Assembly: GCF_001427985.1 (NCBI RefSeq)
Contig: NZ_LMSA01000002.1
Span: 603,865 to 664,560 of the forward strand
From: Knoellia sp. Soil729
GTDB taxonomy: Bacteria; Actinomycetota; Actinomycetes; Actinomycetales; Dermatophilaceae
DNA: 60,696 bases
Direction: 5' to 3'
Position 1 is the first letter of the stretch. Each line of letters begins with the position of its first letter. The notes under the pieces are model-generated. The model did no database searches. It saw only the letters and a list, made by a program, of their open reading frames with translations, and was not told the DNA's origin. Both the position numbers and the translations under genes were made by a program. Below, piece after piece: positions 1-60,696 of this stretch.

Positions 1-398
1 CTCAGGCACGCGGTCTCGCGCACCAGGATCATCGCCCGACGCTCACTGATCTCCCCACGCGTGAGCGCGCCCATCGTCTCCGGCATCTCCGACACCAGCG
101 CCTTCGCCACCCCCACGTGCTGGTCCGCCAGGGTCGGTGAGCACCGACGCGCCAGCGCGACCTCCGCGCGCACACTGCGCGAGTCCTCCCCCAACCCCTC
201 ACGGTCCACCACCGCAGCCGCCGTCAACCGCGCCTGCGCCGCCGCAGCCGCACCCTTGAGCGCCTCCAACGCCGAGACCGCCTCCAAGCGCTCCCGCTCG
301 CTCACGCCCTCGGGGTCCACCGACGACAACCACGACACCAAAGAGACCACCTGCGCTGCAGGTACCCCACCCAGGATCGCGATCTCGTCCATACCCAT
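1..398 (-). CDS. DUF222 / 13E12-repeat family protein, N-terminal part only (runs off the left edge)
   Basis: Reading the minus strand from ATG at 398 gives an uninterrupted frame to the window edge, starting MGMDEIAILGGVPAAQ and continuing with a helical, Ala/Arg/Glu-rich stretch (EALKGAAAAAQARL, then LARRCSPTLADQHVGVAKAL and LTRGEISERRAMILVRET). This order is typical of the DUF222 domain of the 13E12 family, which usually carries a C-terminal HNH nuclease domain; that part lies outside the window. ATG at 392 is an alternative start. Codons end in G unusually often (GTG, TTG, GCG, GGT), unlike the C-ending codons of the neighbours, which suits the repetitive, mobile nature of this family. 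The molecular role is not known. Confidence 0.75.
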   Translation of the reverse strand, partial: MGMDEIAILGGVPAAQVVSLVSWLSSVDPEGVSERERLEAVSALEALKGAAAAAQARLTAAAVVDREGLGEDSRSVRAEVALARRCSPTLADQHVGVAKALVSEMPETMGALTRGEISERRAMILVRETACL

Positions 399-678
399 CA
401 ACCTATCGACGACCACTGACAACGAGCCGTCGCAGCAAGCCGAACCGGTTGCGGCACAGGGCATCTGCGGCCCCGGGGTCGTGGCCTGTCGTAAGGGAGG
501 CACTACAGGAAGGCGACGTGCGCCTCCCTCCCCAGCCGGACTCACAGGCTCACCCATGCGCACAGAGCTCCCGGCGAGCACTGACACTACCGGTGACGTC
601 ACGAGCCGACAGTGATGGCGTCCTTCAGAGGCCAAGCGGTTGGAGGGCCACGGCGCAGGCCACAGTGAGCACCCGGCA
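399..678. other. Intergenic region with one hairpin
   Basis: About 280 bases without a convincing gene. A 7-bp inverted repeat (GGGAGGC at 495-501, GCCTCCC at 522-528) is the only clear structure. It lies between the divergent DUF222 and mycothione reductase genes and must hold the DUF222 promoter, which I could not pinpoint. Confidence 0.4.
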
Positions 679-684
679 TACCCT
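679..684 (+). promoter_or_regulatory. -10 hexamer of a leaderless mtr promoter
   Basis: TACCCT ends 6 nt before the ATG at 691, so transcription should begin at or next to the start codon. No Shine-Dalgarno sequence is present. The hexamer overlaps a copy of the CGGCATAC octamer. Confidence 0.5.
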
Positions 685-690
685 GAGCGC

Positions 691-2109
691 ATGGCGACTC
701 ATCACGACCTCATCATCATCGGGACGGGGTCCGGGAACTCGCTCCTCACGCCCGAGCTGGACGGTCTCGACATCGCGATCGTCGAGGAGGGCACGTTCGG
801 CGGCACCTGCCTCAACGTCGGGTGCATCCCGACCAAGATGCTGGTGCTTCCCGCCGACCGTGTCCTCGAGTCGCGCGAGGCCCAGCGACTCGGCGTGACC
901 ATCGGCGGCGACGTCAAGGTCGACTGGCCCGCGATCCGGGACCGCATCTTCACCGACCGGATCGACCAGATCGCCTCCGGTGGGGAGCGGTTCCGCCGCA
1001 GCCAGGCCTTCGTCACCGTGTATGCCGCGACTGCTCGTTTCGTGGGCGACCGTCGCCTGGCCCTGTCGACGGGTGAGGAGATCACCGCCGACCGGGTCGT
1101 CGTCGCGGCAGGCTCGCGCGCGAACCTCCTCGAGATCGACGGGCTCGACCGGGTCGACCCCTCGCGCGGGGTGCACACCAGCGACACCGTGATGCGCGTT
1201 GACGAGCTCCCCCGGCGGATGGCCATTGTCGGCGGCGGGTTCGTGGCCTGCGAGTTCGCCCACGTCTTCAGCGGCCTCGGCGTCGAGGTCACCCAGATCC
1301 AGCGGTCGGGTGCGCTGCTACGGGCCGAGGACGACGAGATCTCGCGCCGCTACACCGAGCTCGCCCGAGGTCGCCACGACCTGCGGCTCGAGACCGTGAT
1401 CTCGTCGGCGACCCGGTCCGACGACGGCACGTGGACGCTGGAGCTCGAGGGCCTCGACGGCCGCACCGACGTCGAGGTGGACGCCGTCCTCATCGCGGTC
1501 GGTCGCACACCCAACGGTCCCCGGCTCGAGGTCGCGGCCGGCGGCATCGACGTCGACGAGGACAACATCGTGGTGGTCGACGCGCAGCAACGCACGACGG
1601 CCGAGGGCGTCTGGGCGCTCGGCGACGTCGCCAACTCGTGGCAGCTCAAGCACGTGTCCAACCATGAGGCCCGCGTGGTCGCGCACAATCTCGCCGTCGA
1701 CACCGGGCGCCTTGACGGAGAGCCCATCGAGGCGGACCACAGGTTCGTCCCGCACGCGGTCTTCGGTCATCCCCAGATCGCGGCGTTCGGACCGACCCGG
1801 GCGCAGCTCGACGACGCCGGGACGCCCTACGTCCACTACACCCAGTCCTTCGGCGACACGGCCTACGGCTGGGCGCTCGAGGACTCCACGGGCATCCTCA
1901 CCGTCTGCGCCGACCCGGACACCGGCCTGCTCCTCAGCGCCCACTGCATGGGGCCGCAGGCCTCGACCCTCATCCAGCCGCTCATCCAGGCGGCATCGTT
2001 CGGGCAGAAGGCGCACGACGTCGCGCGCGGCCAGTACTGGATCCACCCGGCTCTCGCCGAGGTCGTCGAGAACGCGCTGCTCGGCCTGGACTTCTCCGGC
2101 ACGAGCTGA
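691..2109 (+). CDS. mtr: Mycothione reductase
   Basis: A 472-residue pyridine nucleotide-disulfide oxidoreductase that reduces mycothiol disulfide with NADPH, keeping the cytosolic thiol pool of actinobacteria reduced. The N-terminus has the FAD-binding GTGSGN (residues 11-16) and the redox disulfide C40-x4-C45 in GGTCLNVGCIPTKM. A second Rossmann motif (VGGGFVACEFA) binds NADPH, and the C-terminus has the dimer-interface signature YWIHPALAEVVENALL with the catalytic His. The GTGSGN block and the lack of a lipoamide-type context favour mycothione reductase over dihydrolipoamide dehydrogenase. A longer frame opens at 640, but ATG at 691 fits the family and sits behind a -10 hexamer. It converges directly on the MFS gene at 2110. 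Confidence 0.9.
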   Translation: MATHHDLIIIGTGSGNSLLTPELDGLDIAIVEEGTFGGTCLNVGCIPTKMLVLPADRVLESREAQRLGVTIGGDVKVDWPAIRDRIFTDRIDQIASGGERFRRSQAFVTVYAATARFVGDRRLALSTGEEITADRVVVAAGSRANLLEIDGLDRVDPSRGVHTSDTVMRVDELPRRMAIVGGGFVACEFAHVFSGLGVEVTQIQRSGALLRAEDDEISRRYTELARGRHDLRLETVISSATRSDDGTWTLELEGLDGRTDVEVDAVLIAVGRTPNGPRLEVAAGGIDVDEDNIVVVDAQQRTTAEGVWALGDVANSWQLKHVSNHEARVVAHNLAVDTGRLDGEPIEADHRFVPHAVFGHPQIAAFGPTRAQLDDAGTPYVHYTQSFGDTAYGWALEDSTGILTVCADPDTGLLLSAHCMGPQASTLIQPLIQAASFGQKAHDVARGQYWIHPALAEVVENALLGLDFSGTS

Positions 2110-3395
2110 TCAGGGCGAGGGCTCGCGCGCGTCGTAGCGCAGGAACCCCGACTGCAGCCGCGCGAGCACGACGATCGCTGTGATGCAGGCGAGTCCGCCG
2201 ATCACCGCGGTCATGCCCTCGCCGACGTTGACGGCGACGAACCCCCCGACCAGCTCCCCGAGACGCGGTCCGCCTGCCACAACGACGATGAAGACGCCCT
2301 GCAGCCGCCCTCGCAGGTGGTCGGGTGTCGCGGACTGCAGGATGGTCGTGCGGAACACAGCGCTCACCGAGTCGGCGCCACCGGCGACGGCCATCGCCAC
2401 CAGACCCGCCCACAGGGCCTGCCCCCGAGTCAGCACGTCCCCCGCGGCAAGCATGGCGGCGCCCAGGCCGGTGATCGCGGCGCCCCAACCGACGATCGAG
2501 ATGAGGATGGCGCGTCCTTGGTGGATCACGGTGCCCAGGCGTCCTGAGAAGAACATCGCGCCGATCCCACCGAACGCCGCAGCGGCCGAGAGGGCACCGA
2601 CGGTCGACGCCCCACCGCCGAAGATCACCGCCCCGGCCGCGGGGAACAGCACCCTCGGCTGCGCCAGGACCATGGCACAGATGTCGGAGATGAAGGTCAT
2701 GCGCACGTTGGGTCGCGTCGCGAGGAACGTGAACCCATCGAGAACCGACCGTATGCCGGGTGCTCGCCGCTGCGCCTCAACCTCGCCAGTGTCGGCGGGT
2801 TCCGGTGGCAGGGAGGGCAGCCGGGCCAACCCCCAGAGAGCAGCTGTCGTGATCACGGCGTCGACGGTGTAGGCCGACTTGAAGCCACCCAGTCGACGAG
2901 CACGCCGGCGAGCAAGGGGCCGACGGTCATCGACGCGTTCATTGCGAAGACAGACAGCGCGTTGGCAGCGGGCAGCTGGTCGCGCCGCAGGATGCGCGGA
3001 TAGATCGAGCTCCGCGCCGGGGACGACACGGCGTACGCGGCGTTCCAGGCGGCGACGAGCGCATAGAGCACCCACACCTGCGTGTTGCCCGTCCACGCCT
3101 GGAGGGCGCACAGGATGCTCACGACGAACGCGACGCTCTGCGCGATGAGCCCGACCACCCGCCGGTCGAAGTGATCGACCAGCGTGCCGCCGTACAGGCC
3201 CATGATGACGAGCGGGACGAGCGCGCACAGCCCCACGATGCCGACGGACGCCGTGGACCGGGTCAGCTCGTAGACCTGCAGCCCGATCGCGACCACCGCG
3301 AGCTGGGAGCCGACGTTCGACAGGGTGTAGCCGGCATACAACCGGCGGTAGTCCGGGTTGCTCCTCAGCGGTTCGGTGTCGAGGATCAGGGCCAC
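2110..3395 (-). pseudogene. MFS exporter (enterobactin-exporter-like), interrupted by a -1 frameshift
   Basis: Two overlapping minus-strand frames together encode one major facilitator protein of about 428 residues. The N-terminal half starts at GTG 3395 (VALILDTEPLRSNPDYRRLY) and carries the helices up to GPLLAGVLVDWV. The C-terminal half continues in another frame with GFKSAYTVDAVITTAALWG and ends FLRYDAREPSP. The join is near 2885-2887, where the coding strand reads GGGTGGCTTC; one extra G would restore DWVGFKSAYT. Both halves are otherwise intact and MFS-like, so either a recent single-base deletion inactivated the gene or the assembly lost a base in a G run. The substrate is unknown; siderophore or drug export is typical for this subgroup. 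Confidence 0.8.
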
Positions 3396-3619: not shown

Positions 3620-4603
3620 TCATGCGTGCTCCCACGCGGCGGTGAGTCGGTCCCGCCACCACCGCACGCGGTCCGGGGCGGCGGCATGACGGTCGAGCAG
3701 GTCGGGGTCCGCGACAACGCGGTGCACCGGCAGCTCGCCGTCGACGGGGATGAGCGAGTCGGTGGTGACGTCGCCGGCGAGCAGGGCCACGGTGCCGAGC
3801 CCGCAGGCGTGGTCCAGCCGGGGAAGGGCGGCCGCGAGCGCGACACCGGCAGCCATCCCGACGCTCGTGTCGAGGGCCGACGACACGACGGCCGGCAGTC
3901 CGCACTCCTCCACGATCTCGAGCGCACGACGCACTCCTCCGAGCGGTGCTGCCTTGATGACGATGAGGTCGGCGGCATCGAGGTCGCGCACCCGCATCGG
4001 GTCCTCGGCCTTGCGGATCGACTCGTCGGCTGCGACCGGGATGTCGATCCCCTTGCGCGCCAGCGCAAGTCGCAGGTCACGCAGCTCCTCGACGCTGGCA
4101 CAGGGCTGCTCCGCGTACTCGATGTCATGGGTCGCCAGGCGCCCCAGCACGTCTGTGGCCGTGGCCACGTCCCATGCGCCGTTGGCGTCGACCCGGACCC
4201 GAGCGTGAGGTCCCATGGCATCGCGAACCGCAGCGACACGGCATACATCGTCCTCAGTGGACTGACCACGCTCGGCGACCTTGACCTTGGCGGTCGTGGT
4301 GCCCGGGAATCGTTGCAACACACCGGGGACGGCCTCGGGTGCAACAGCCGGGACGGTGGCGTTGACCGGCACAGAGAGGCGCAGCGGGTCCGGCCAGCCC
4401 GACCACGCCGCCTCGACCGCGGCCGCGAGCCAGCGACCAGCCTCGGGGGGGGCGTACTCGAGGAAGGGACCGAACTCGCCCCACCCCGCCGGACCCTCGA
4501 GGAGGGCGACCTCGCGCTCGGTGACGCCGCGGAACGTCACGCGCATCGGGATCGAGACGACCCGAAGTGTCGCGAGCAGGTCCTCGAGCGACGGCCCGGT
4601 CAT
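3620..4603 (-). CDS. menC: o-Succinylbenzoate synthase
   Basis: A 327-residue enolase-superfamily enzyme that dehydrates SHCHC to o-succinylbenzoate in menaquinone synthesis. Catalytic and metal-binding positions are visible: K106-V107-K108 (TAKVKVAE), D139 in VDANGAW, E165 in EYAEQP, D193 in AADES, and K217 in IVIKAAP as the second catalytic lysine. Length and residue order agree with actinobacterial MenC. The frame starts at ATG 4603. It is divergent from the small 4656 gene and menB, and with menB, menE and menA forms a loose menaquinone cluster on both strands. Confidence 0.92.
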   Translation of the reverse strand: MTGPSLEDLLATLRVVSIPMRVTFRGVTEREVALLEGPAGWGEFGPFLEYAPPEAGRWLAAAVEAAWSGWPDPLRLSVPVNATVPAVAPEAVPGVLQRFPGTTTAKVKVAERGQSTEDDVCRVAAVRDAMGPHARVRVDANGAWDVATATDVLGRLATHDIEYAEQPCASVEELRDLRLALARKGIDIPVAADESIRKAEDPMRVRDLDAADLIVIKAAPLGGVRRALEIVEECGLPAVVSSALDTSVGMAAGVALAAALPRLDHACGLGTVALLAGDVTTDSLIPVDGELPVHRVVADPDLLDRHAAAPDRVRWWRDRLTAAWEHA

Positions 4604-5894: not shown

Positions 5895-6350
5895 TCATCC
5901 CTGACCGCCGATGTCCACCTCGTAGGCCTCGTAGATCAGGTCCGCCCCACGCTGCCGGTGCCGGATGATCCGCCCGACGAGCTCGGTCGCCGCTTCCCGG
6001 TGCGCCGCGACGGCGTCCGCGCTCTCGAGCCCGGCCTCTCGCTCACCCAGCAGCCGCTGCACCACCTCGACGAACTCGACGTGCTCGTCCATCTGCACCT
6101 TGGACATCGAGGCGAGCCGTGGCGCCCGGGCCACGGCGTCGGCATACAGGCCACCCGGCTCCTCGGTGATGGCACGGTGGTCGCGCAGGTCGTGCTCGAG
6201 CTCGGTCAGCGCCGCACGCACCCGTCGCCGCCACAGGGGCCCCAGGCCGACCGGCAGGGCCAGGGCCGCGTCGAGCGCCGTCAGCGACTCCCCCAGCTCG
6301 GCCCGGTGCGCCCGGACCCGCTCGAGGTAGGCCGTGAACTCGGCGTCCAT
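5895..6350 (-). CDS. Conserved hypothetical helical protein
   Basis: About 151 residues, almost wholly alpha-helical and charged (EFTAYLERVRAHRAELGE, ALTELEHDLRDHRAI, VQMDEHVEFVEVVQRLLGERE, ELVGRIIRHRQRGADLIYEAYEVDIGGQG). I see no signal peptide, membrane segment or catalytic motif and do not recognise the family. ATG 6350 is chosen because it opens the first clean helix; ATG 6359/6362 and GTG 6368 are possible. It is divergent from menE (start 6398) and convergent with menB. Its place among men genes suggests a link to the pathway, but nothing in the sequence shows one. Confidence 0.6.
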   Translation of the reverse strand: MDAEFTAYLERVRAHRAELGESLTALDAALALPVGLGPLWRRRVRAALTELEHDLRDHRAITEEPGGLYADAVARAPRLASMSKVQMDEHVEFVEVVQRLLGEREAGLESADAVAAHREAATELVGRIIRHRQRGADLIYEAYEVDIGGQG

Positions 6351-6397: not shown

Positions 6398-7579
6398 ATG
6401 AGGATCGAGCCGCTCGCGGTGCCGGGCGGCGCGGCGGTGGCGACGGTCCTGCCGCGTCTCGCGCGAGCCCTCGAGGGTGGTCACCCCATTGCCCCGTATG
6501 CCGCGGGCTCGCCTCCCCCACAGCTGCCACCCCACGATGTGGCCGGGCTCCCTCGAGACCTGGGCGTCGTCGTGGGGACCTCCGGGTCCACGGGCCAACC
6601 CAAGCGGGCGATGTTGGGCGCAGGCTCCCTGCACGCGAGCATCAATGCCACCCATACCCGGCTCAGCGGCCCCGGTCAGTGGCTTCTCACCATGCCGGCC
6701 CACCACATCGCCGGGCTCCAGGTGCTCCTGCGCTCCCTGGTCGCCGGGACCACTCCCCACGTCATGGACCTCGGTGGGGGCTTCACTCCGTCGGCGTGGA
6801 CCACCGCCGTCGACGCCATGCCGGCAACGGACCGGCCGACCTATGTCTCGCTCGTCCCCACCCAGCTGACCAGGCTGCTGGCCGACGCAGGTGCCACCCA
6901 GCGCCTGACGACCTTCGCCGCCGTCCTCGTCGGGGGTGCGGCCACCCATCCCGACCTCCTGGCCAGGGCTGCGGAGGCCGGAGTGACCGCCGTGACGACC
7001 TACGGAATGAGCGAGACCGCGGGCGGCTGCGTCTATGACGGCGAGCCGCTGGACGACACCACGGTGCTCGTCGACCATGACGGCCGCATCCACCTCGGCG
7101 GGGCAACGTTGGCGCACGGCTACCTCGGTGATCCCGCGCTGACCGCCACCGCCTTCCCCTCTTTCGGGACGCGGCTGGGCCGCGTGTTCCGTACCGACGA
7201 CGTCGGCCATGTCGACGACAACGGGCGGCTCCACGTCGACGGGCGCATGGACGACCTGGTCAACACGGGAGGCCTCAAGGTCGCACCCCGGATCGTCGAG
7301 GAGGCCGTGGCCCGGCTCCCCGGCATCGCCGAGGCGGTTGCCGTGGGCATCCCCGACCCGGAGTGGGGCCAGGCCATCGCTGTCGCCGTCCGGCGCGGCG
7401 CCGGCAGTGCACCCAGCCACCCCCTCACGGTGGGCGAGCTGCGCGAGCAGCTGCGCGGCATACTGCCCGACCATGCCCTGCCCAGAGCGCTCCTGGAGAT
7501 CGAGGACCTCCCGACCCGCGGGCCCGGCAAGCCCGACCGTGCGGCCGTGATCGCGCTGTTTGCCGGCGTGGGAGAATGA
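6398..7579 (+). CDS. menE: o-Succinylbenzoate-CoA ligase
   Basis: A 393-residue ANL-superfamily acyl-CoA synthetase, short as actinobacterial MenE proteins are. The ATP/AMP-binding P-loop is VVGTSGSTGQPKRAML, the A5 motif is TYGMSETAGG, the hinge region carries FRTDDVGHVDDNGRLHVDGRMDDLVNTGG, and the C-terminal catalytic Lys sits in GPGKPDR. The reaction activates o-succinylbenzoate for MenB, matching its neighbours. The short PLDc_N-like gene follows 4 nt after the stop. Confidence 0.9.
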   Translation: MRIEPLAVPGGAAVATVLPRLARALEGGHPIAPYAAGSPPPQLPPHDVAGLPRDLGVVVGTSGSTGQPKRAMLGAGSLHASINATHTRLSGPGQWLLTMPAHHIAGLQVLLRSLVAGTTPHVMDLGGGFTPSAWTTAVDAMPATDRPTYVSLVPTQLTRLLADAGATQRLTTFAAVLVGGAATHPDLLARAAEAGVTAVTTYGMSETAGGCVYDGEPLDDTTVLVDHDGRIHLGGATLAHGYLGDPALTATAFPSFGTRLGRVFRTDDVGHVDDNGRLHVDGRMDDLVNTGGLKVAPRIVEEAVARLPGIAEAVAVGIPDPEWGQAIAVAVRRGAGSAPSHPLTVGELREQLRGILPDHALPRALLEIEDLPTRGPGKPDRAAVIALFAGVGE

Positions 7580-7844: not shown

Positions 7845-8729
7845 ATGGCCACGTTCCAACAGTGGGTCGCCGGTGCGCGCCCTCGTACGCTCTTTGCCGC
7901 CGTGGCTCCCGTCATCATCGGCACGGCAGCCGCCGCCCAGCACTCCGAGCCCAGCTACGCGATCGCCATCCTCGCCGGCGTCGTGGCCCTCGCCCTGCAG
8001 ATCGGCGTGAACTACGCCAACGACTACTCAGACGGCATCCGCGGCACCGACGACTCGCGCGTGGGGCCGGTGCGCCTCGTCGGGCAGAGGCTGGCCCGGC
8101 CCGAGAGCGTCAAGGCAGCGGCGTTCCTCACGTTCGGTTTCGCGGCGATCGTCGGGCTGGCGCTCGTCGCCATCGCCGAGGCGTGGTGGCTGCTTCCCCT
8201 CGGCATCGCCTCGATCGTGGCGGCATGGAAGTACACCGGCGGCGACAACCCTTACGGCTACATGGGGCTCGGCGAGATCTTCGTCTTCGTGTTCTTCGGC
8301 CTCGTCGCCACGCTCGGAACGATGTATGCCGAGACCGGAACCCTCACATGGTTCGCCGTGGCTGCGGCCGTCGGGGTCGGCGCCATCGCCTCGGCGATCC
8401 TCGTCGCCAACAACCTGCGTGACATCCCGACCGACAGCGAGACCGGCAAGCACACGCTGGCCGTGCGTCTGGGCGACCGGGGCACCCGCTACCTCTGGCT
8501 GGGGCTCATCGTCACCAGCGTTCTCGCCGTCGGCGTCATGGCGATCTGGCAGCTGTGGGCCCTGCTCGGGCTGGTCGCGGTGCTCACGATCTACCGGGGA
8601 ACCCAGGTGGTCATGGGCGGCGCCCAGGGGCGCCAGCTCGTGCCGGTGCTGGGCTCGACCGGCAAGTACGAGCTGGCCTACGCGGTCGCCGTCTTCGCGG
8701 GAGTCCTCATCGCGCGCACCATTGCCTGA
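7845..8729 (+). CDS. menA: 1,4-Dihydroxy-2-naphthoate polyprenyltransferase
   Basis: A 294-residue UbiA-family membrane prenyltransferase that attaches the polyprenyl chain to DHNA, making demethylmenaquinone. The first Asp-rich motif is NYANDYSDGIRGTDD and the second region is NNLRDIPTDSETGKHTLAVRLG; about eight hydrophobic segments follow the UbiA pattern. ATG 7845 follows the PLDc_N gene by 12 nt. It is the last + strand men gene here; menD and menF/menH are not in the window. Confidence 0.95.
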   Translation: MATFQQWVAGARPRTLFAAVAPVIIGTAAAAQHSEPSYAIAILAGVVALALQIGVNYANDYSDGIRGTDDSRVGPVRLVGQRLARPESVKAAAFLTFGFAAIVGLALVAIAEAWWLLPLGIASIVAAWKYTGGDNPYGYMGLGEIFVFVFFGLVATLGTMYAETGTLTWFAVAAAVGVGAIASAILVANNLRDIPTDSETGKHTLAVRLGDRGTRYLWLGLIVTSVLAVGVMAIWQLWALLGLVAVLTIYRGTQVVMGGAQGRQLVPVLGSTGKYELAYAVAVFAGVLIARTIA

Positions 8730-23118: not shown

Positions 23119-23344
23119 AGTCGTGATCCGACCCCGAGACGCACGGCTCACCCCGTTCTGGTACAAGCGCCTTGCGGAACCGCTTGCACCCCTTGCGTAT
23201 GCCGTCCGCTCGCCTTGGCGCTTGGGCTCCACGCACGTATGCCGTTCGCCGCTGTCCCATCCGCACTCGCGCGCTGAGCGCGCTTCGCGCTCCCGCCAGA
23301 CCCAGCCAGCGGCGACCGACATACGTGCGTTTCGCCTGAGTCGC
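23119..23344. other. Intergenic region upstream of rex
   Basis: About 225 bases without a gene. It holds two GTATGCCG octamers and an 11-bp inverted repeat, ACGCACGTATG (23231-23241) and CATACGTGCGT (23320-23330), 78 nt apart. The run CGCGCGCTGAGCGCGCTTCGCGCTC between them is also self-complementary. It also contains the 3' flank of the glutaredoxin gene. Confidence 0.4.
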
Positions 23345-23608: not shown

Positions 23609-23622
23609 ACGCGAACCTGGCC

Positions 23623-31962: not shown

Positions 31963-32073
31963 GCAGGTCAGGTTATCCGTTCCGCCGACGTCCTCATGAC
32001 CCGTATGCCGTCCGCCCACCTCCGCGCCCACCTTCCCCGAGCTCCCCCCTCACCGTTGCCCTTGCGTCGGGCG

Positions 32074-47267: not shown

Positions 47268-47915
47268 TCAGCGCTTGCCGCCGAGCAGGAGCGACATCGC
47301 CTCTGCCCGGGTGGCAGGGTCACGCAGCTGGCCGCGCACCGCCGAGGTGATCGTGCGCGAGCCGGGCTTGTGCACGCCACGCATCGACATGCACAGGTGC
47401 TCGGCCTCGATGACGACGATGACGCCCTGCACGCCGAGGTGCTCGACGAGCGCATCGGCGACCTGCGTGGTGATGCGCTCCTGGACCTGGGGCCGGCGCG
47501 CGAAGACATCCACGAGGCGGGCCAGCTTGGACAGCCCCGTCACCGTCCCGTCGGGCGACGGGATGTAGCCGACGTGGGCGACACCGTGGAAGGGCAGCAG
47601 GTGGTGCTCGCAGGTGGAGTAGATCTCGATGTCGCGCACGATGATGAGCTCTTCGTGGTCGATCGAGAAGCGCGTGGACAGGATGTCGGCAGGGTCCTGC
47701 GACAGGCCGGCATACAGCTGGGTCGCGGCACGCGCGACCCGGTCCGGGGTGTCCTGCAGGCCTTCACGGTCGGGGTCCTCGCCGATCGCGAAGAGCAGCT
47801 CACGCACGGCCGCGCGGGCACGCTCGTGGTCCACCTGGCCGGGCGGGAGGGTGTCGGACTCCTCGAACTGCTCGCCCGAGGAGCCGCCGGCGTCAGTGGG
47901 CGTCTGGGTCGACAC
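47268..47915 (-). CDS. folE: GTP cyclohydrolase I
   Basis: 215 residues. [72 protein letters not shown] and [17 protein letters not shown] carry the zinc ligands (CEHH, C in EHLCM) and catalytic His. First step of folate synthesis. GTG 47915 lies 23 nt inside the end of ftsH. Confidence 0.96.
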
Positions 47916-50016: not shown

Positions 50017-50189
50017 GAAATGTGTATGGGGCCAGCGGCCCCACGTCCTCCTGATCAGCGAAATCTCCGTACGCGCTCACGCGGCACAGGCCTGGGTGCA
50101 CACGCTACCCGCCAGAAGGCTGGCTCCACGGGGCGCGTCCGAGGGGACAACGAGCGGCGTATGCCGCGTGTTCCGCGCGGCCCTGCGGC

Positions 50190-50906
50190 TCAGGAGCGGT
50201 GGCGGGCCAGGAACGCGCCGATCGCGGCGCGCGGGTTGTCGCGCAGCTCGGGCCCGTGGGTGAACGCGGCCGTCGTGTACTCGAGGGTCGTGAGTCGCTC
50301 GGCCGTCTGCGTCGTCATGACGAAGTTGGTGCAGAAGGACCTGACCGGCCACCGGAGCCCGCGGACGTTGAAGATCGAGTCGCCGGTGATGAGGACACCG
50401 CTGTCGCGGTGGAGGTATGCCGCGTGCCCCGGTGAGTGCCCGGGCGTGTGGACGACCTCCAGGCCGCCCGCGACAGGGACGACATGACCGTCCACGAAGG
50501 TCTCGCCGACCTCGACCGGCTCGAACGCGCGGCGCCCACCGGTGAGGCGGTTGGCGAGGGCGCCGATGCGCACGGAGCTGTCACGAGGTGGCGCGAAGCC
50601 CGTGCGGATGAACTCGGCGTCGTCCTCGTGGATGTCGACGGGGCGCCCGGTCTCGCGCGAGATGTGGGCGGTGCCACCGGCGTGGTCGGGGTGGGCATGG
50701 GTGAGCAGGAGCCGGGTGACGTCGACCGGCCCGGAGCCGATGCTGCGGAGCGCCGCCATGACCTTGGGGCCGTGCGACTTCAGGCCCATGTCGACGAGCG
50801 TCACCTGCCCGTCGTCGTCACGGAAGATGAACCCGTTGATGAAGTCGCGCAGCAGGGGGATGCGCCACACGCCGGGAGCGAGTGGGACGACGAGGTCTGG
50901 GCCCAT
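50190..50906 (-). CDS. Metallo-beta-lactamase-fold hydrolase
   Basis: 238 residues. THAHPDHAGG is the HxHxDH metal motif; VVHTPGHSPGHAAYLHRDSGVLITGDSIFN carries the further His and Asp ligands. This is the glyoxalase-II-like subgroup, substrate unknown. It lies between ftsH and hpt on the same strand, 15 nt after hpt. The 173 nt between it and ftsH hold the ftsH promoter and an octamer copy. Confidence 0.85.
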   Translation of the reverse strand: MGPDLVVPLAPGVWRIPLLRDFINGFIFRDDDGQVTLVDMGLKSHGPKVMAALRSIGSGPVDVTRLLLTHAHPDHAGGTAHISRETGRPVDIHEDDAEFIRTGFAPPRDSSVRIGALANRLTGGRRAFEPVEVGETFVDGHVVPVAGGLEVVHTPGHSPGHAAYLHRDSGVLITGDSIFNVRGLRWPVRSFCTNFVMTTQTAERLTTLEYTTAAFTHGPELRDNPRAAIGAFLARHRS

Positions 50907-50921: not shown

Positions 50922-51473
50922 TCAGCTGTAGACGTGGGGCGCGAGGGTGCCCACCTGGCGCAGCCCGCGGTACTGCTCCGCGTAGTCGAGGCCGTAGCCG
51001 ACGACGAACTCGTTGGCGATGTCGAACCCGACCCACCTGACGTCGACCTCGACCTTGGCGGCCTCGGGCTTGCGCAGCAGGGTGACGATCTCGACCGACG
51101 CCGGCTTGCGCGACTCGAGGTTGGCCTTGATCCACGACAGCGTCAGGCCCGAGTCGACGATGTCCTCGACGATGAGCACGTGCTTGCCGGAGATGTCGGC
51201 GTCGAGGTCCTTGAGGATGCGCACGACGCCGGAGCTCTTCGTGCCCGACCCGTAGGACGAGACGGCCATCCAGTCGACCGGCGCGGTCATCGGCAGCGCG
51301 CGCATGAGGTCGGCCATGACCATGACGGCCCCCTTGAGCACGCCCACGAGCAGCAGGTCCTTGCCGGCATACTCCTGCGCGATCTCCTCGGCGAGCTCCG
51401 CGAGCCTGGCGTGGATCTCGTCCTCGCTGATGAGGACCCGCTCGAGGTCGGCTCCCATGTGGGCAGCGTCCAC
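50922..51473 (-). CDS. hpt: Hypoxanthine phosphoribosyltransferase
   Basis: 183 residues. LLLVGVLKGAVMVMADLMRAL, SSYGSGTKSSGVVRILKDLDADISGKHVLIVEDIVDSGLTLSWI (the PRPP-binding motif VLIVEDIVDSGLT) and VDVRWVGFDIANEFVVGYGLDYAEQYRGL match purine-salvage HPRT. GTG 51473 has AGGAG 8 nt upstream; ATG 51458 is alternative. In actinobacteria hpt is normally between tilS and ftsH, as here, with one small gene interposed. Confidence 0.94.
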   Translation of the reverse strand: MDAAHMGADLERVLISEDEIHARLAELAEEIAQEYAGKDLLLVGVLKGAVMVMADLMRALPMTAPVDWMAVSSYGSGTKSSGVVRILKDLDADISGKHVLIVEDIVDSGLTLSWIKANLESRKPASVEIVTLLRKPEAAKVEVDVRWVGFDIANEFVVGYGLDYAEQYRGLRQVGTLAPHVYS

Positions 51474-51923: not shown

Positions 51924-52967
51924 TCAGGATGACACGGTGACCCTGTCGTCTCTCCGCGTGACCCGCAGGGCACCCGGGACGTGAATGGGTCCCTGACCGT
52001 GCCAGTTCGTGAGCAAGGCATCACAGGCTTCCGTATGCCGGGTGCTCACCTGCCCGGCCGGCGCACCTGCTGCCACGAGGAGCCGTCGCCACGCCCGCGT
52101 CCGGACGGCCCGGGGCAGGTTCGTCAGGGCCCCGACGTCCCACGGACCGGCTCCGAGCACCCCCACGGCCTCGTCCGCCAGCACATCGAGGTGGTCGGCG
52201 TCCTCGCGCAGCTGTGCCGCCGAGCGCCCCAGTGCCGCAACGACTCCGGGTCCGAGGTCGGCCTCGAGGTCGGCCACGGCCCGCCGGGCTCGCACCCGGG
52301 TGAAGGAGGGGTCGTCGTTCATCGGGTCGTCCCACCACGGCACCTCCTCCGCACGCAGCGACTCCCGGCACTCCGCGCGGCTCACGCCGAGCAGGGGTCG
52401 TCGATACGTCCCGCGCACGGCCGCCATGCCGGCGAGAGACCGTGCACCTGAACCACGCACCAGTCCCAGGAGCACCTGCTCGGCCTGGTCGTCGAGGGTG
52501 TGCCCGAGGAGCACCACGGCGGCACCGGACTGGTCGGCGACGCGCGACAACGCGGCATACCGGGCGTCCCGAGCGGCAGCCTCGAGCCCGGAGCCCCTGT
52601 CGGACACCGCAACCCGCTCGACCACCACAGGGTCCAGCCCCAGCTCGGTCAGCCATCCGGCCGCCCGCGATGCCACAACATCGGAGCCCGGCTGCAGGGC
52701 ATGGTCGACGACGACCGCGCCGGCTCGCCACACCGCGTGACGGGCCTCGTGCGCCACGGCCTCGGCGAGCGCCATGGAGTCCCCTCCGCCACTGCACGCG
52801 ACCAGGACCAACGGCGCGTCCGTGCTTTTCTCACCAATTCCCGGGTTGTGCACCGGCGTGTCCGTGCTTTTCGGGGGAATTGGTGAGAAAAGCACGGGTG
52901 GGAGGTCAGCGAGGGCCGCGCGGACGGCATACCGGATCTTCGCGGTCGACGGGTGCGGACCGGGCAT
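51924..52967 (-). CDS. tilS: tRNA(Ile)-lysidine synthetase, with an in-frame palindromic insert
   Basis: 347 residues. The PP-loop is LVLVACSGGGDSMALAEAV (residues 53-71; SGGGDS 59-64), followed by VDHALQPGSDVV, VLLGHTLDDQAEQVLLGLVRGSGARSL and PLLGVSRAECRE, the N-terminal ATPase core, and a helical C-terminal region. It makes lysidine at position 34 of tRNA-Ile(CAU), an essential step. Residues about 25-51 (VLFSPIPPKSTDTPV...GEKSTDAP) interrupt the usual short link between the first helix and the PP-loop and are encoded by a 23-bp perfect palindrome. ATG 52967 follows the metalloprotease gene. Confidence 0.92.
   Translation of the reverse strand: MPGPHPSTAKIRYAVRAALADLPPVLFSPIPPKSTDTPVHNPGIGEKSTDAPLVLVACSGGGDSMALAEAVAHEARHAVWRAGAVVVDHALQPGSDVVASRAAGWLTELGLDPVVVERVAVSDRGSGLEAAARDARYAALSRVADQSGAAVVLLGHTLDDQAEQVLLGLVRGSGARSLAGMAAVRGTYRRPLLGVSRAECRESLRAEEVPWWDDPMNDDPSFTRVRARRAVADLEADLGPGVVAALGRSAAQLREDADHLDVLADEAVGVLGAGPWDVGALTNLPRAVRTRAWRRLLVAAGAPAGQVSTRHTEACDALLTNWHGQGPIHVPGALRVTRRDDRVTVSS
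52820..52897. repeat. Palindromic element inside tilS
   Basis: Left arm 52820-52842 (begins CCGTGCTTTTCTCACC) and right arm 52875-52897 are exactly complementary over 23 bp. A second direct copy of CCGTGCTTTT at 52862-52871 can pair with the right arm instead. The element is in frame and free of stops on the coding strand. Confidence 0.88.
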
Positions 52968-54042: not shown

Positions 54043-55488
54043 TCAGTGACAACCGCACTCGGTGAGTGCGGTGACGAACCGGTCCAACGCCTTGCGTGCT
54101 CCGAGCGTTCCCGACGAGGGTGGCACATCGTCGGCGAGAACGACGAAGGAGAGCAGGCGCCCGTCGGCGTCCACGGTCGTCCCGGCCAGGCTCGAGATCC
54201 CGGCCAGCGTGCCGGTCTTCGCCCGGGGTATGCCGGCCACGACCTTGGTCTCCTTGCTGCGGTAGCGGTCGGAGAGGCTGCCACTCAGCCCGGCCACGGG
54301 CAGGCCGGCGATCGCGCGACGCAGCTCGGGGAGCTGGTCGGTCGTGGCGAGGGTGAGCACGTCCGCGAGGGCGGTGGTGGTGACCGTCTGCCCGGGAGAT
54401 AACCCGCTGACGTCGAGCAGCTTCAGCCCCGCCGTCGGCACCCCTGCCTTCGCGAGCTGCTTGACGACGAACTGCGGCGGGGCCAACGGGGCCGCGGGCG
54501 ACTCCCCCGCAGCGACCATGGCCTGTCGCACGAGGTTCTCGGTGAGGGCGTTGTCGCTGTGCAGCAGCGCAACGCCCAGGTGCTCGCCATAGGTGGCCGA
54601 CTCGACCGCCCCCAGCTCCGTGGCCCCGGCGGGAGCAGCCGTGCCGTGTCCCTTGAGCGGGACGACCTTGGTGGGGTGGCCTCGGGTCGTGAGGGCCTTG
54701 GCGAGCGCTGCCGCCACGCCCGCCTCGGGCACCGCCGGGGCAGGGCGGCCCGCAGCGGCCCGCTGCGACACCAGGTCGAGCATCGACACCGACTGCGTGT
54801 AGCCAGCGGCGATGTCCTCCTTCTTCCACGTCGCGGGGTAGGGCGGACCGGCGGCATAGGTCGCGTCGACGCGCAGCGTGACGGGTCCGGCGGAACGGTC
54901 GATGAGGGCCTGCGCCACCTGGTCGGCCAAGGTGGCGATGCCGGCCCGCCCCTCCACGACGTCGTCGTCGGACTTCCCGGCGCCGAGCAGGGTGTCGCCG
55001 GCGGCGACGAGCACGATCTCGCCGGGGGTGTCACCGGTCACGACCCGCGTGCGCATCCGCGCGTCGAGGTCGAGGTTCTGCGTCACGGCCAGGGTGCTCA
55101 GGAGCTTGAGGGTCGAGGCAGGTGCGCGGGGCACGGAGGGCTGCACGGCATACAGCTCTCTGCCCGTGAGTCCGTCACGGACGCTGACGCCGACGCTGGG
55201 ACCCAGCCACGGGTCCTTGACCAGGGGCCCGAGGACGTCCGCGAGGCCCCGGGACGTCGGCGGCGTGGGGATGCTCGCCGAGGCGGTGGGACTTGGGATA
55301 GCAGCCGGAGCGCTGGGCAGCGGGGCCCAGGCGGGCGACTGGCTCGCCGAGCCGGTGGGCGTCGGCGGGGCGACGGGGGCGCCGTCATAGGTGAGGATCC
55401 CGGGAGCGAGGTCGACCACGTCGGCCGCCGCGTAGCCGACTCCGGCGAGGACGAGACACGTGACCCCAGCCACAACCGCCCGTCGCAT
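54043..55488 (-). CDS. dacB: D-alanyl-D-alanine carboxypeptidase/endopeptidase (PBP4 type)
   Basis: 481 residues. An N-terminal membrane anchor/signal ([21 protein letters not shown]) is followed by a Pro/Ser-rich linker to about residue 80, then the transpeptidase domain: SxxK as S125-T-L-K128 in [13 protein letters not shown] in [16 protein letters not shown] in [12 protein letters not shown]. The large insert between SxxK and SDN is the PBP4 class C layout. It trims peptidoglycan outside the membrane. ATG 55488 is divergent from ppa, 90 nt away. Confidence 0.93.
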
Positions 55489-57031: not shown

Positions 57032-57547
57032 TCAGGGTCCGGTCGGGTGGACGGCCAGGTCCTCGCGCAGGGCGGCGAGGGTCCTGGCGATGTTGCGCTC
57101 ATGGAACGCGGCGAAGGTCCGGCCACCGGTCAGCCTCGCGTCGACGGCGTTCGCCACCCGGTCGGGCCAGCGACGACGGGCGTCGCGCCAGGTCTCGGTC
57201 ACGCGGGTGCCACCCTCGGTGGCCTCGAAGGTGTACTCCCACCGGGCGATCGCGATGCGCAGCAGCGGCGACCTCAGCCCCCAGCCCACGACGTCGAACG
57301 CAAACCTCTCGCCGGGGTCGGCCGCGCTCACCCTGCACCGCGTCTGCCACCGGGTGCCGCCGCGCTGGTTGGCGCCCACGAAGACGTGACCGACCGAGAG
57401 GCTCCCGGCACCGCGCTCGACCTGCGCCCCGGTGTTCTCCGGGCTCCACCGCGACATGCGCGTCGGGTCGCTCACCTGCGCATAGACCTCGGCGGGCGTG
57501 ACCCCGGGGATGACCACCGAGTCACTGACCTTCATCGCACGCGCCAT
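57032..57547 (-). CDS. SRPBCC-family (START-like) protein
   Basis: 171 residues: VSDSVVIPGVTPAEVYAQVSDPTRMSRWSPENTGAQ is the opening helix-grip motif, then WQTRCRVSAADPGERFAFDVVGWG and WEYTFEATEGGTRVTETWRDAR, the usual SRPBCC end. It binds hydrophobic ligands or acts in polyketide-like chemistry; no ligand can be named. ATG 57547 has TAGGCT 6 nt upstream; ATG 57535 is alternative. Confidence 0.85.
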   Translation of the reverse strand: MARAMKVSDSVVIPGVTPAEVYAQVSDPTRMSRWSPENTGAQVERGAGSLSVGHVFVGANQRGGTRWQTRCRVSAADPGERFAFDVVGWGLRSPLLRIAIARWEYTFEATEGGTRVTETWRDARRRWPDRVANAVDARLTGGRTFAAFHERNIARTLAALREDLAVHPTGP

Positions 57548-57561: not shown

Positions 57562-57655
57562 CGGAGCGACGCACGCTCCGGACCACCCGGCATACCGACG
57601 TCTTTTCGGTATGCCGTGTGGCGCGGTTCACGAGACACCGCGCCGCCTCGCGGCG
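57562..57655. repeat. Four consecutive hairpins between divergent genes
   Basis: (1) CGGAGCG 57562-57568 with CGCTCCG 57574-57580. (2) CCAC-C-CGGCATACCGA 57583-57598 with TCGGTATGCCG-T-GTGG 57606-57621, an inverted pair of the genome's frequent octamer. (3) GCGCGGT 57621-57627 with ACCGCGC 57637-57643. (4) CGCCGC 57641-57646 with GCGGCG 57650-57655; hairpins 3 and 4 share three bases. Both flanking genes read away from it, so it is not needed as a terminator. Confidence 0.7.
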
Positions 57656-57685: not shown

Positions 57686-58888
57686 GTGCACGGTGCCGTG
57701 CGTGTCGTGGTGGCCATGCTCTGTGGCGCCCTGCTCGCGGGCTGCGGTGCACGGCCCCAGGTCGCGACGCAGTGGGCAGAGCCCCAGCTGGCGACCGGCC
57801 CCGGCTTCCGCGTCGCCGACCACGACCCGGACGGCGCGGCCCTCGCGAAGAAGTCGCGGGAGTGGGTCGAGAGCGGGTCCGTACCCGGCATGGCGACGCA
57901 GTGGGAGTCGATGAGCCGCTGGGCTCTCACCGACATCCGCCAGATGATGGTGATCGGCGAGGCTGCCGGGGACGGACCGGCAGCCGGCGCCGCCGCGCAC
58001 TGGGGCTACTTCTGGCCGCGTGACGGGGCCTTCATCATCGTGGCCCTCGACCGCACGGGGCACAGTGAGGACGCCCGCCGGTTGGTGGACTTCATGTCGC
58101 GGCTCCCGTTCGAGCGAGCCAAGGGGTTCGACGCGCGCTACCTGCTCGACGGCAGCCGCGTCACCGTGGACCCGCGCGGGCCGCAGTCCGACGGGTGCGG
58201 GTGGGTGCTGTGGGCCCTGGGGTCCGTCTCCGCTGAGTCGCTCCCGGCCTCGGCGGACGGTCTGAGGTCGAAGTGCCTCTCCAACGTGCTCTCGCTGACG
58301 TGGAGTGGCTGGCGCCTGCCTCCGCCGTCGCCGGACTACTGGGAGATCTCCGCGCCGGAGACCTCCTTGGGGACGGTGGCGCCGATGCTCGCTGGACTCC
58401 GGGCGACGGCCGACCACGGCCCCGTCGACGCCGAGCGGTGGGCCGCTGGCCAGGCCGCCAAACGCCTTGAGTCACAGGTGTTCTCATCGATGGGCCCCTC
58501 CCTGGAGAGGTTCGGGGACCACGGTGGCCTGGATGCGGCCATCGCGATCATGATGCCGCCGTTCGGTCCGGAGGACCGGCGCACGACGAAGCGCTGGCTG
58601 GACTACCAGCGACTGGCCACGAGGGAGTCGGGCGGGCTGGCGCCGGGGGTGGAGTGGAAGCAGGACGGGACGTCGTGGACGCCGGAGAGCGCCCTCGTCG
58701 CGTACACCGCGGCCGCATCGGGTCGCAAGGAGGTCGCTGGCCACTGGCTCGACTGGCTCAACGAGCACCGCACGCCGTGGGGGTCGCTGCCCGAGAAGGT
58801 CAACCGCTCGGGCCAGCCGGCCGGGCCCGCACCGCTGCTGTGGACCGCTGCGCTGGTGCTGCTGACTCTGGATGCCCTCGAGTCCTGA
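57686..58888 (+). CDS. Lipoprotein with a GH15-like (six-hairpin) glycosidase domain
   Basis: 400 residues. The lipobox LLAGC puts the lipidated cysteine at residue 20, so the protein is an exported, anchored lipoprotein. HWGYFWPRDGAFIIVALDRTGHSEDARRLVDFM, SPDYWEISAPETSLGTVAPMLAGL, FGDHGGLDAAIAIMMPPFG, WTPESALVAYTAAASG and SLPEKVNRSGQPAGPAPLLWTAALVLLTL resemble the (alpha/alpha)6 barrel of glucoamylase-type enzymes, with WPRD and PEK as likely active-site regions. AAGGAGG lies 6 nt before GTG 57686. Substrate unknown; an alpha-glucan or trehalose-type sugar would fit the fold. Confidence 0.75.
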   Translation: MHGAVRVVVAMLCGALLAGCGARPQVATQWAEPQLATGPGFRVADHDPDGAALAKKSREWVESGSVPGMATQWESMSRWALTDIRQMMVIGEAAGDGPAAGAAAHWGYFWPRDGAFIIVALDRTGHSEDARRLVDFMSRLPFERAKGFDARYLLDGSRVTVDPRGPQSDGCGWVLWALGSVSAESLPASADGLRSKCLSNVLSLTWSGWRLPPPSPDYWEISAPETSLGTVAPMLAGLRATADHGPVDAERWAAGQAAKRLESQVFSSMGPSLERFGDHGGLDAAIAIMMPPFGPEDRRTTKRWLDYQRLATRESGGLAPGVEWKQDGTSWTPESALVAYTAAASGRKEVAGHWLDWLNEHRTPWGSLPEKVNRSGQPAGPAPLLWTAALVLLTLDALES

Positions 58889-58913: not shown

Positions 58914-59294
58914 ATGACCGATTGCCCGAGGGTTCGCTCGGTCGAGCTGGCGTTCACGGTCACCGAGGCGGACACGGCGGCGGCGCTCGGGTCCGGCAGC
59001 CTGCCGGTGCTCGCGACTCCGCGGCTGCTGGCCTGGATCGAGGCCGCGACCTGTGCCGCCCTCGAGCCGGTGATCGCTGCCGGGCGCAGCAGCGTCGGAA
59101 CCCGCGTCGACCTGCAGCACAGCGGCGCCTCCCCCGTCGGCACCGAGGTCACGGTGACCGCGGACCCGTCCTACAGCGACGGGCGACTTCACCGGCTCCG
59201 GGTGAGCGGACGGCATACCGACGGCAGGATCATCGCCACCGGCGAGATCACCCGCGTCGTGGTCGACATCGACCGCTTCCTCGGCAGGCTCTGA
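58914..59294 (+). CDS. Thioesterase-like hotdog-fold protein
   Basis: 126 residues: VELAFTVTEADTAAALGSGSLPVLATPRLLAWIEAATCAALEPVI, SSVGTRVDLQHSGASPVGTEVTVTADPSYSDGRLHRLRVSG and IATGEITRVVVDIDRFLGRL follow the FlK/thioesterase hotdog pattern with the helix-capping Glu (WIEAAT). It would hydrolyse an acyl-CoA or a toxic acyl compound. ATG 58914; it follows the lipoprotein gene by 25 nt. Confidence 0.8.
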   Translation: MTDCPRVRSVELAFTVTEADTAAALGSGSLPVLATPRLLAWIEAATCAALEPVIAAGRSSVGTRVDLQHSGASPVGTEVTVTADPSYSDGRLHRLRVSGRHTDGRIIATGEITRVVVDIDRFLGRL

Positions 59295-59397: not shown

Positions 59398-59912
59398 GCA
59401 CCACCGACGCCTTCACCTCGCTGTTCGACCGCATGCCCGACCTCGTCCACTCGGCCGTCAAGGACCTGGCCGCCGACGACCTGTCTCGGTCTCCGAGTTC
59501 CGGCGCCAACACGATCGCCTGGCTCGTCTGGCACCTCAGTCGGGTCGAGGACGACCACGTGGCCACCGCCGCGGCTGCCCTGGGGCACAAGGGGTTCGAG
59601 CAGGTGTGGGTACGCGACGGTTTCGCTGATCGCTTCGGTCTGCCACTGCCGCCCGACGACACCGGGTTCGGTCACTCAGCGGAGCAGGTGGCCCAGGTCC
59701 GGGCCGACGGCACACTGCTCGAGGACTACCACCGGGCGGTGCACGAGCAGACCCAGCGGTTCCTCGCCGGCCTCGGCGAGGAGGACTGGGAGAGCGTCGT
59801 CGACAGGCACTGGGACCCACCGGTCACCCTGCTCGCACGGCTCACGAGCGTGGCCAACGAGGTCGCCCAGCACGTGGGCCAGGCCTCCTATGTGCGCGGC
59901 CTGCTCAGCTGA
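59394..59912 (+). CDS. DinB-family protein (DUF664 type)
   Basis: 172 residues of the four-helix DinB/YfiT-like fold: TSLFDRMPDLVHSAVKDLAADDLSRSP, ANTIAWLVWHLSRVEDDHVATAAAAL, LEDYHRAVHEQTQRFLAGLGEEDWE and LTSVANEVAQHVGQASYVRGLL. The three metal-binding His positions fall in WHL, YHRA and QHVGQ. In actinobacteria the family is linked to mycothiol-dependent S-transfer, which fits mtr in this window, but the substrate is unknown. Confidence 0.87.
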   Translation: MSTTDAFTSLFDRMPDLVHSAVKDLAADDLSRSPSSGANTIAWLVWHLSRVEDDHVATAAAALGHKGFEQVWVRDGFADRFGLPLPPDDTGFGHSAEQVAQVRADGTLLEDYHRAVHEQTQRFLAGLGEEDWESVVDRHWDPPVTLLARLTSVANEVAQHVGQASYVRGLLS

Positions 59913-59939
59913 CCCCCAGGTCGGCCGCGTGCAGGTGGG

Positions 59940-60173
59940 TCAGTGCCTGGGACGGGTGACGAACAGGCCAGAGACCGCGACAGCCGTGAGGATGACCAGT
60001 CCAGCTCCCACTCGCAGCATCGACGTGCGCCCGGTGACGTCGGCTGCGTAGACGGAGAGGATGGCGCCGAGGAAGCCGTAGCCTGCGGCAAGCCACAGGA
60101 TGGCACGGGCTGCGAAGGTGTGCGAGTCATCGGTCACGAGGAGGTCCTTGCCGTGAGTTTGCCCCGCCAGCAT
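59940..60173 (-). CDS. Small two-helix membrane protein
   Basis: 77 residues with two hydrophobic segments (ARAILWLAAGYGFLGAILSVYAADV and MLRVGAGLVILTAVAVSGLFVTR). I do not recognise a family. ATG 60173 is given; GTG 60137 (VTDDSHTFAARAIL) would remove a polar stretch and is equally likely. It converges on the DinB gene. Confidence 0.6.
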   Translation of the reverse strand: MLAGQTHGKDLLVTDDSHTFAARAILWLAAGYGFLGAILSVYAADVTGRTSMLRVGAGLVILTAVAVSGLFVTRPRH

Positions 60174-60282
60174 AGATCGATCTGCGACGCCCAGCCCGGC
60201 TGAGAACTGCCCATTGTGGACGTGGCCCGCCGCAGCAGGGTCGGCGTCTGTGACCGCCTGCGTCGATCAGCCCCGAGCTCGC

Positions 60283-60696
60283 TCAGGTCGCGTGACGTTC
60301 CTCATCGCCCGACAGCCGATCATTGTCGTTGGCCGACATGGAGTCGTCTCCGAGGTCGGCCGGGCCCATGGCCTTGACGAGCCCACGGTGCTCGTAGCCG
60401 GCGGGGGCCGCCTCGGGGTGGTGCAGGTCGAAGGCGGGGCGCTCGGAACGGATCCGCGGGATCGAGTCGAAGTTGTGCCGGGGCGGCGGGCAGGACGTCG
60501 CCCACTCGAGCGAAGCGCCGTAGCCCCACGGGTCGTTGCTCTCGACGAGCGGTGCGTAGCGCCAGGTCTTCCAGACGTTGTAGAAGAACGGCAGCATCGA
60601 GGCGCCCAGGAGGAAGGCACCCATCGAGGAGACCTGGTTGGCGAACGTGAAGCCGTCCTCGGGCAGGTAGTCGGCGTAGCGCCGCGGCATGCCCCA
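60283..60696 (-). CDS. ctaD: Cytochrome c oxidase subunit I, C-terminal part (runs off the right edge)
   Basis: The visible 137 residues, [49 protein letters not shown] and a long polar tail, match the last membrane helix and C-terminus of aa3-type Cta[10 protein letters not shown] is the conserved loop before helix XII. The haem- and copper-binding part lies beyond 60696. It ends the respiratory theme of the window; the region 60174-60282 between it and the small membrane protein shows no gene or clear hairpin. Confidence 0.9.

Follow-up and report, generated by a model that had tools for sequence, protein, structure and literature searches.

A highly iterated octamer of Knoellia and other Dermatophilaceae as the predicted core of a DNA-uptake sequence

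In the portions of the literature examined, uptake sequences are described only for the Pasteurellaceae and the Neisseriaceae, and a search of PubMed Central (PMC), which does not cover preprints, gave no actinobacterial uptake sequence among the matches listed. The neisserial DNA-uptake sequence (DUS) is present in about 1,500 to more than 4,000 copies per genome according to the sections seen of PMC2346458 and PMC3630211, and a CTG core is required by all its dialects (PMC3630211, same sections); for the uptake signal sequence (USS) of the Pasteurellaceae, the part of PMC7811141 that was seen gives a mean spacing of about 1 kb and inverted pairs at gene ends. Here we analyze an octamer, GTATGCCG, that is repeated throughout a stretch of 60,696 bases of Knoellia sp. 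Soil729 (contig NZ_LMSA01000002.1, positions 603,865–664,560; hereafter the window, position 1 being its first base). We predict, with a probability of roughly 0.6, that this octamer is the core of a DNA-uptake sequence and that biased natural transformation has spread it.

The octamer resembles DUS in its copy number, its occurrence in both orientations and at genic as well as intergenic sites, and its clade-specific dialects. Unlike DUS, it has no fixed CTG in its flank, and its host has no PilT above cut-off (ComP was not searched for). The letters ATGCCGTCYG recur in the DUS ATGCCGTCTGAA and in the form of the octamer most often seen between genes, an overlap that we take as coincidence. 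Even spacing per strand and alternation of orientation, two features of the host described below, are not mentioned for DUS in the portions of the literature examined. With USS, the octamer shares a short core followed by a weaker flank, a spacing of about 1 kb and inverted pairs. The weaker flank of USS consists of A/T tracts; the differences are that the core is GTATGCCG and neither AAGTGCGGT nor ACAAGCGGT, that the flank has two T positions ten bases apart, and that phylum and cell envelope are other ones. Like HIP1 (highly iterated palindrome 1) of cyanobacteria, it is a highly iterated octamer present by genus; HIP1 is palindromic, whereas the core studied here is directional and has a 3' flank. 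Finally, Chi of RecBCD and the FtsK orienting polar sequences/FtsK recognition sequences (KOPS/FRS) are also short, directional and chromosome-wide. They are strand-biased, whereas GTATGCCG is balanced, with 100,849 forward and 101,150 reverse copies summed over the 106 genomes rich in it. Judged from sequence, the octamer may thus work like DUS and USS while standing outside both families by its core or its receptor.

Enrichment, relatives and codon conservation

An earlier note on this DNA, made by eye, had put the number of copies at about 50, in near-equal orientations. The window contains exactly 50, of which 23 lie on the plus strand and 27 on the minus strand, and each of the eleven positions quoted in the note is at most 3 bases away from where a copy starts. 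A third-order Markov model predicts 2.1 copies (the note had given a chance expectation of about 2), and 100 dinucleotide shuffles of the window yielded a mean of 0.60 (standard deviation (sd) 0.74, largest value 3). Under the Markov model, no other 8-mer of the window scores higher than GTATGCCG. The host genome (8 contigs, 3.6 Mb) carries 1055 forward and 1083 reverse copies, that is 2138 in all, compared with 38 + 51 = 89 for the reversed word used as a control. A host sample of 460.7 kb, which is made up of the window and a further 20 stretches, each of 20 kb, from the same genome and underlies the host figures given below, contains 285 copies where the third-order Markov model, the background that the note had proposed as a yardstick, predicts 12.4. 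Rfam gave no match at gathering scores.

Among 186 Dermatophilaceae genomes, 106 are rich in GTATGCCG (404–4724 copies), 66 are poor (fewer than 150) and 14 lie between, the latter being counted as neither in the comparisons between rich and poor genomes. The rich genomes span 30 of the 53 genera, and three genera include both rich and poor members. In an order-wide sample of 198 genomes, 14 of which belong to the family, the highest count among the other 184 is 167 copies (control 184). As to the surroundings of the host, the closest named relative of its HemB is that of Knoellia locipacati (87%), and the next matches include Janibacter, Phycicoccus and another Knoellia.

Two words differing by one base from GTATGCCG behave as dialects. 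The first, GGATGCCG, is found in a second family, f19, at 485 to 4831 copies across 22 sampled genomes; we infer from motif-laden named loci (Microbacterium yannicii, Cryobacterium tagatosivorans) that f19 is Microbacteriaceae. In four Microbacteriaceae-like loci, where 2 of 71 GGATGCCG copies are intergenic and alternation is unclear, codon background may be a partial source of the word. The second, GTATGACG, is present beside GTATGCCG in all five g14 genomes (1622–1966 copies, control 71–99) and reaches 1557 copies in G167 (control 151); it was taken as a dialect after a local repeat in locus L045 had been checked. Counts of GGATGCCGT amount to 1971 in G034 (control 61) and 1530 in G035 (control 53); this word accompanies GTATGCCG in G036 and G037 and is elevated in G017, G018 and G178. 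Dialects that follow clades and lie one base apart are a feature of uptake sequences, and GGATGCCG and GTATGACG display it. Note that L045, which belongs to genome G029, has overlapping repeats at 7206–7573, mostly 44 bases apart, and at 740–846 an array of repeats at 19-base spacing, GACAAGTCGGCA included.

Codon usage does not account for the copies. As claimed in the note, coding copies bring in rare TAT (Tyr) and GCA (Ala) codons; these are minority codons in the host (14.9% of Tyr and 7.3% of Ala codons), where ATA makes up 0.8% of Ile codons. In the host sample, 25 of 40 ATA codons and 104 of 360 TAT codons lie inside motifs. The comparison of sister genomes at synonymous sites, which the note had suggested, relied on 14 of 80 relative loci, picked by motif content (10 motif-bearing, 4 motif-free). 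Among sites where the amino acid is the same, the motif-bearing relatives kept the rare codons TAT, ATA and GCA in 34 of 54 cases inside motifs versus 49 of 353 outside (Fisher p ~1e-13, the rows not being independent); the corresponding figures for the motif-free relatives were 0 of 14 and 1 of 120. This conservation within motifs at synonymous sites argues that the motif itself is maintained and, together with the share of ATA codons inside motifs, speaks against the codon-pair explanation raised in the note.

Placement, flank and orientation of the copies

According to genes called with a home-made codon-score caller, 59 host copies lie at least partly in intergenic DNA, a density of 1.33/kb, compared with 226 coding copies at 0.54/kb. 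By type of spacer, convergent ones hold 12 copies in 4.2 kb (2.86/kb), compared with 1.34/kb for divergent and 1.11/kb for co-directional ones. The density peak in convergent spacers is what one would expect if the copies were transcription terminators, an origin that we consider together with codon or codon-pair usage and mutation bias. However, inverted neighbours less than 30 bases apart number just 6 among 264 neighbour pairs. Moreover, although the hairpin-forming inverted pair at 57583–57621 claimed in the note is borne out by folding (−32.6 kcal/mol and z −5.59 for 57575–57630), the genes on its two sides, 57032–57535 (−) and 57686–58888 (+), diverge, so that the hairpin is not a terminator there. 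The motif also takes the rarest codons, it is enriched between host genes, and named relatives with similar G+C (e.g. L058, L061 and L068) have zero copies. Codons, mutation bias and terminators are therefore refuted as a full explanation, and we give this family of causes hardly any credence; some inverted pairs may act as terminators.

The core is followed by a one-sided flank. In the 56 host copies that are wholly intergenic, T occupies position +8 in 55% and position +18 in 61%, and the intervening preferences are C/T at +10 (87%), G at +11 (71%), C/T at +13 (89%) and C at +14 (70%). The two T positions are separated by ten bases, about one helical turn. They are found at 49% and 44% in other host-genus stretches and, more weakly, at 41% and 32% in other genera. 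T stands at both positions behind 19% of exact cores; for seven one-mismatch words, the share is no higher than 8%. A sharp preference for the exact core is seen in the intergenic counts: base frequencies predict 1.7 wholly intergenic exact copies where 56 are observed, versus 42 one-mismatch words where 19 are observed. Two one-mismatch words are elevated in the host sample, GTAGGCCG with 59 copies for an expectation of 23 and CTATGCCG with 25 for an expectation of 8.4, and neither has the T(+8)/T(+18) flank. Iterated words, HIP1 among them, have been suggested to be targets of DNA methylases or restriction enzymes, and such a target would agree with the strong preference of intergenic DNA for the exact core; nevertheless, the core is non-palindromic, restriction would disfavour sites, and the flank preference extends to +18, ten bases beyond +8. 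We thus hold a methylase or restriction target to be highly improbable.

Neighbouring copies tend to point in opposite directions: this is so for 191 of 264 neighbouring host copies (p 2e-13). Among pairs 30–1500 bases apart (closer pairs are skipped), 56 have the same and 143 the opposite orientation, a same-orientation share of 0.28, compared with 0.44–0.69 for 53 control octamers of similar count (54 words were tested, including the motif). More specifically, the first three 500-base bins contain 17, 15 and 25 same-orientation pairs versus 29–46 further out, and 56, 49 and 44 opposite pairs versus 26–45 further out; the depletion of same-orientation pairs reaches about 1.5 kb. The copies of each strand are also evenly spaced, with a coefficient of variation (CV) of 0.64 (simulated 0.964, sd 0.055); for all copies taken together, the CV is 0.86 (simulated 0.985, sd 0.059). 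The 37-word set used for spacing comparisons includes the motif. Two independent, even per-strand processes, when simulated, give 66% opposite neighbours versus the 72% observed. The pattern recurs elsewhere in the family: across 37 stretches, of which three come from the host genus and some are motif-free, pairs less than 1.5 kb apart comprise 113 in the same and 193 in the opposite orientation (193/306, p 6e-6).

No strand bias is seen, as the note had held in setting the word apart from Chi and KOPS, although replichores were not mapped. None of 21 host stretches is strongly one-sided (the most uneven ratios are 6:3, 3:6, 9:5 and 5:9, and the window stands at 23:27), and the one-contig genome G078 has 1406 and 1399 copies by strand; this balance argues against a KOPS-like signal. 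The main rival of the uptake reading is a Chi-like site for another nuclease, namely a helicase-nuclease distinct from RecBCD (e.g. AdnAB) that enters from a DNA end and for which each orientation serves one direction. Such a site would agree with the even per-strand spacing and the alternation found in the host, and with the non-palindromic core. Classical Chi is co-oriented with replication, whereas orientation is balanced here; the word is, furthermore, gained, lost or changed by a letter between sister species. The RecC profile, which matches 45 of the 106 rich and 38 of the 66 poor genomes family-wide, has no match in any of the nine host-genus genomes, which removes the classical explanation, Chi of RecBCD. 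Overall, we judge a Chi-like site for AdnAB or a similar enzyme to be unlikely.

Recent DNA, competence genes and the uptake reading

Copies are few near integrase genes. Twenty tyrosine-integrase stretches from the host genus, hand-chosen among the matches listed with the best-scoring ones omitted as likely XerC/XerD, contain 154 copies in 390 kb (0.395/kb), compared with genome averages of about 0.6–0.9/kb. One 20 kb stretch is copy-free and three are at genome density (0.70, 0.80 and 0.93/kb); in most of the longest gaps, G+C is below that of the remainder of the stretch. The scarcity by integrases indicates that the word is sparse in presumably recent DNA. It also bears on the idea that the octamer is a site for a chromosome-organizing or other cytoplasmic DNA-binding protein with a regular, paired spacing. 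That host copies alternate and are evenly spaced, and that some form inverted pairs, is in keeping with this idea; the lower density by integrases, the cost in rare codons and the existence of congeners at background level beside species with thousands of copies are not, and we find it improbable.

As a separate observation, the stretches L181 and L178/L179 (G078:C1:715001–735000 and 1905001–1945000) have several similar tyrosine-recombinase genes, are lower in G+C and are almost motif-free; they are perhaps copies of a multi-copy mobile element in this host-genus genome.

The com and tad genes that the note had recommended looking for are present in the host: comEC adjoins a ComEA-like gene encoding SLBB and helix-hairpin-helix domains, and a tad cluster encodes TadE, Flp pilin, T2SSE and T2SSF, with a phosphoribosyltransferase resembling ComF close by. 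Two candidate readers were rejected. The first, a type IVa pilus receptor, was followed through PilT (TIGR01420), which is above cut-off in only 2 of 186 genomes, none of them the host; a third genome, G182, has it split in two pieces. The second, a VWA-fused TadB, emerged from a comparison of tad loci and looked promising in one sister pair, yet family-wide it occurs in 46 of the 106 genomes rich in the motif and in 18 of the 66 that are poor; at E 1e-15, it is missing from the motif-rich host-genus genomes G075, G078 and G079 and matched in 11 of the 12 genomes of motif-poor g46. Com-locus genes, compared by eye in part, included none special to motif-rich genomes (the stretches L041 and L050 hold no comEC, and L042 and L044 contributed few or no genes to the comparison). 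On the side, the host tad cluster lies in 10.6 kb of motif-free DNA (L141:7848–18482, G000:C1) that adjoins motif-dense DNA. Summed over 12 tad stretches of motif-rich genomes, 24 copies fall in the inner 10 kb and 40 in the outer 10 kb; four of these stretches (L142, L156, L157 and L160) have no inner depletion.

The mechanism we propose would run as follows. Double-stranded DNA with the core and its 3' flank would be bound at the cell surface by a reader that is coupled to the Tad (Flp) pilus and to ComEA/ComEC, and this binding would favour the uptake of word-bearing fragments in natural transformation. Alleles carrying the word would then be copied into recipients more often than alleles without it, a form of molecular drive by which the word would accumulate and be retained genome-wide, while newly arrived DNA would hold few words. 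Orientation may set which strand enters, in which case the two orientations would be separate channels; another copy pointing the same way less than about 1.5 kb away would bring little further advantage, and neighbours would come to alternate. Alternation would be expected if orientation picks the entering strand or if reading of the word is confined to one strand. Same-orientation copies would accordingly be redundant with one another and opposite ones would not, a proposal for which the host and the GTATGCCG loci provide most of the basis.

How far does the evidence carry the comparison with uptake sequences drawn in the earlier note? Density, strand balance, dialects, the exact core with its one-sided flank, the scarcity by integrases and the patchy presence among sister species all fit. 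On this basis, uptake and a reader protein are predicted, and "uptake sequence" is the meaning we infer for the word.

Several observations weigh against this interpretation. (i) ComEC is present in 180 of the 186 family genomes, motif-rich and motif-poor alike, so that the machinery does not predict the motif, and none of the reader candidates examined (PilT, VWA-TadB, com-locus genes) tracked it. (ii) Over the whole host sample, one-mismatch words total 286 for a Markov expectation of 289, which limits the scarcity of decayed copies to intergenic DNA and simple base frequencies; moreover, DUS with one mutation outnumber exact DUS in two species in the part of PMC3630211 seen, a loose comparison given the longer word. 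(iii) Intergenic enrichment is small in other loci of the family (0.71 versus 0.52/kb), missing from integrase-rich Knoellia stretches (0.47/kb each), small in one GGATGCCG genome (G034, 1.71 intergenic versus 1.20 coding per kb), nil in another (G276, 1.54 versus 1.49) and reversed in the four Microbacteriaceae-like loci (0.32 versus 1.01/kb). (iv) Alternation is weak in both GGATGCCG genomes, with same/opposite counts in the first three bins of 76/112, 95/115 and 116/103 for G034 and of 37/38, 43/68 and 42/63 for G276, and it is unclear in the four Microbacteriaceae-like loci (13/22, 20/24, 20/13). (v) Per-strand CVs of 0.93–0.98 in GGATGCCG genomes (G034 0.95, G276 0.98) indicate no even spacing there, and for the host the two-process simulation gives an all-copy CV of 0.75, the observed value being 0.86. 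(vi) Orientation is without effect on uptake in Haemophilus influenzae, as stated in the part of PMC1939737 that was consulted.

A more detailed version of the uptake reading would credit actinobacteria with an uptake-sequence system of their own, one that is independent of the Neisseria and Haemophilus systems and has three or more dialects in two families; in the lineages with GTATGCCG, the word would be read directionally through two strand channels and would form an alternating lattice evenly spaced on each strand. The missing even spacing in GGATGCCG genomes lowers the probability of such a lattice, and we regard this version as doubtful. If the octamer is indeed an independent uptake sequence, self-tagging of DNA would have evolved repeatedly, and without type IVa pili in single-membrane actinobacteria; its presence would further serve to forecast transformability among environmental actinobacteria, and the DNA that they accept. 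The 106 rich and 66 poor genomes, with three dialects and switches within genera, would then constitute a large natural experiment for finding the receptor, and the even spacing per strand is a quantitative trace that could serve to test molecular drive and strand-polar uptake.

Individual copies in the window

Exact-word search places the 50 copies, numbered here by position, as follows. Copies 1 to 7 lie at 674–681 (−), 1020–1027 (+), 2751–2758 (+), 3332–3339 (−), 4239–4246 (−), 6140–6147 (−) and 6496–6503 (+), the third being followed by the 3' flank GGTGCTCGCC. Codon comparison adds detail to several of the next ones. Copy 8 (7456–7463, −) encodes Gly-Ile via the rare ATA, which is conserved in loci L057 and L062; copy 9 lies at 8324–8331 (+); the TAT of copy 10 (11112–11119, −) is conserved in L057 but not in L062. 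After copy 11 (11967–11974, +) come copy 12 (14138–14145, −), the TAT of which is conserved in L057, copy 13 (15015–15022, +) and copy 14 (15383–15390, −), with a TAT conserved in both L057 and L062.

Copies 15 (17785–17792, +) and 16 (17862–17869, −) are within the HemB (ALAD) gene. Copies 17 to 19 follow at 23197–23204 (+), 23237–23244 (+) and 23603–23610 (−). By codon comparison, copy 20 (24675–24682, +) contains a rare ATA that is conserved in L057 but not in L062. The search then gives copies 21 to 30 at 26255–26262 (−), 28842–28849 (+), 29898–29905 (−), 30869–30876 (+), 32003–32010 (+), 32208–32215 (−), 34853–34860 (+), 35298–35305 (−), 37163–37170 (+) and 37750–37757 (−), and copies 31 to 40 at 39442–39449 (−), 40211–40218 (+), 41688–41695 (−), 43073–43080 (+), 43569–43576 (−), 43835–43842 (−), 45230–45237 (−), 46866–46873 (+), 47708–47715 (−) and 50159–50166 (+).

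Copies 41 to 47 are located at 50415–50422 (+), 51365–51372 (−), 52033–52040 (+), 52553–52560 (−), 52925–52932 (−), 54228–54235 (+) and 55146–55153 (−), and copy 50 at 59211–59218 (−). Between these, copies 48 (57588–57595, −) and 49 (57609–57616, +) form the left and right arms, respectively, of the hairpin-capable inverted pair described above.

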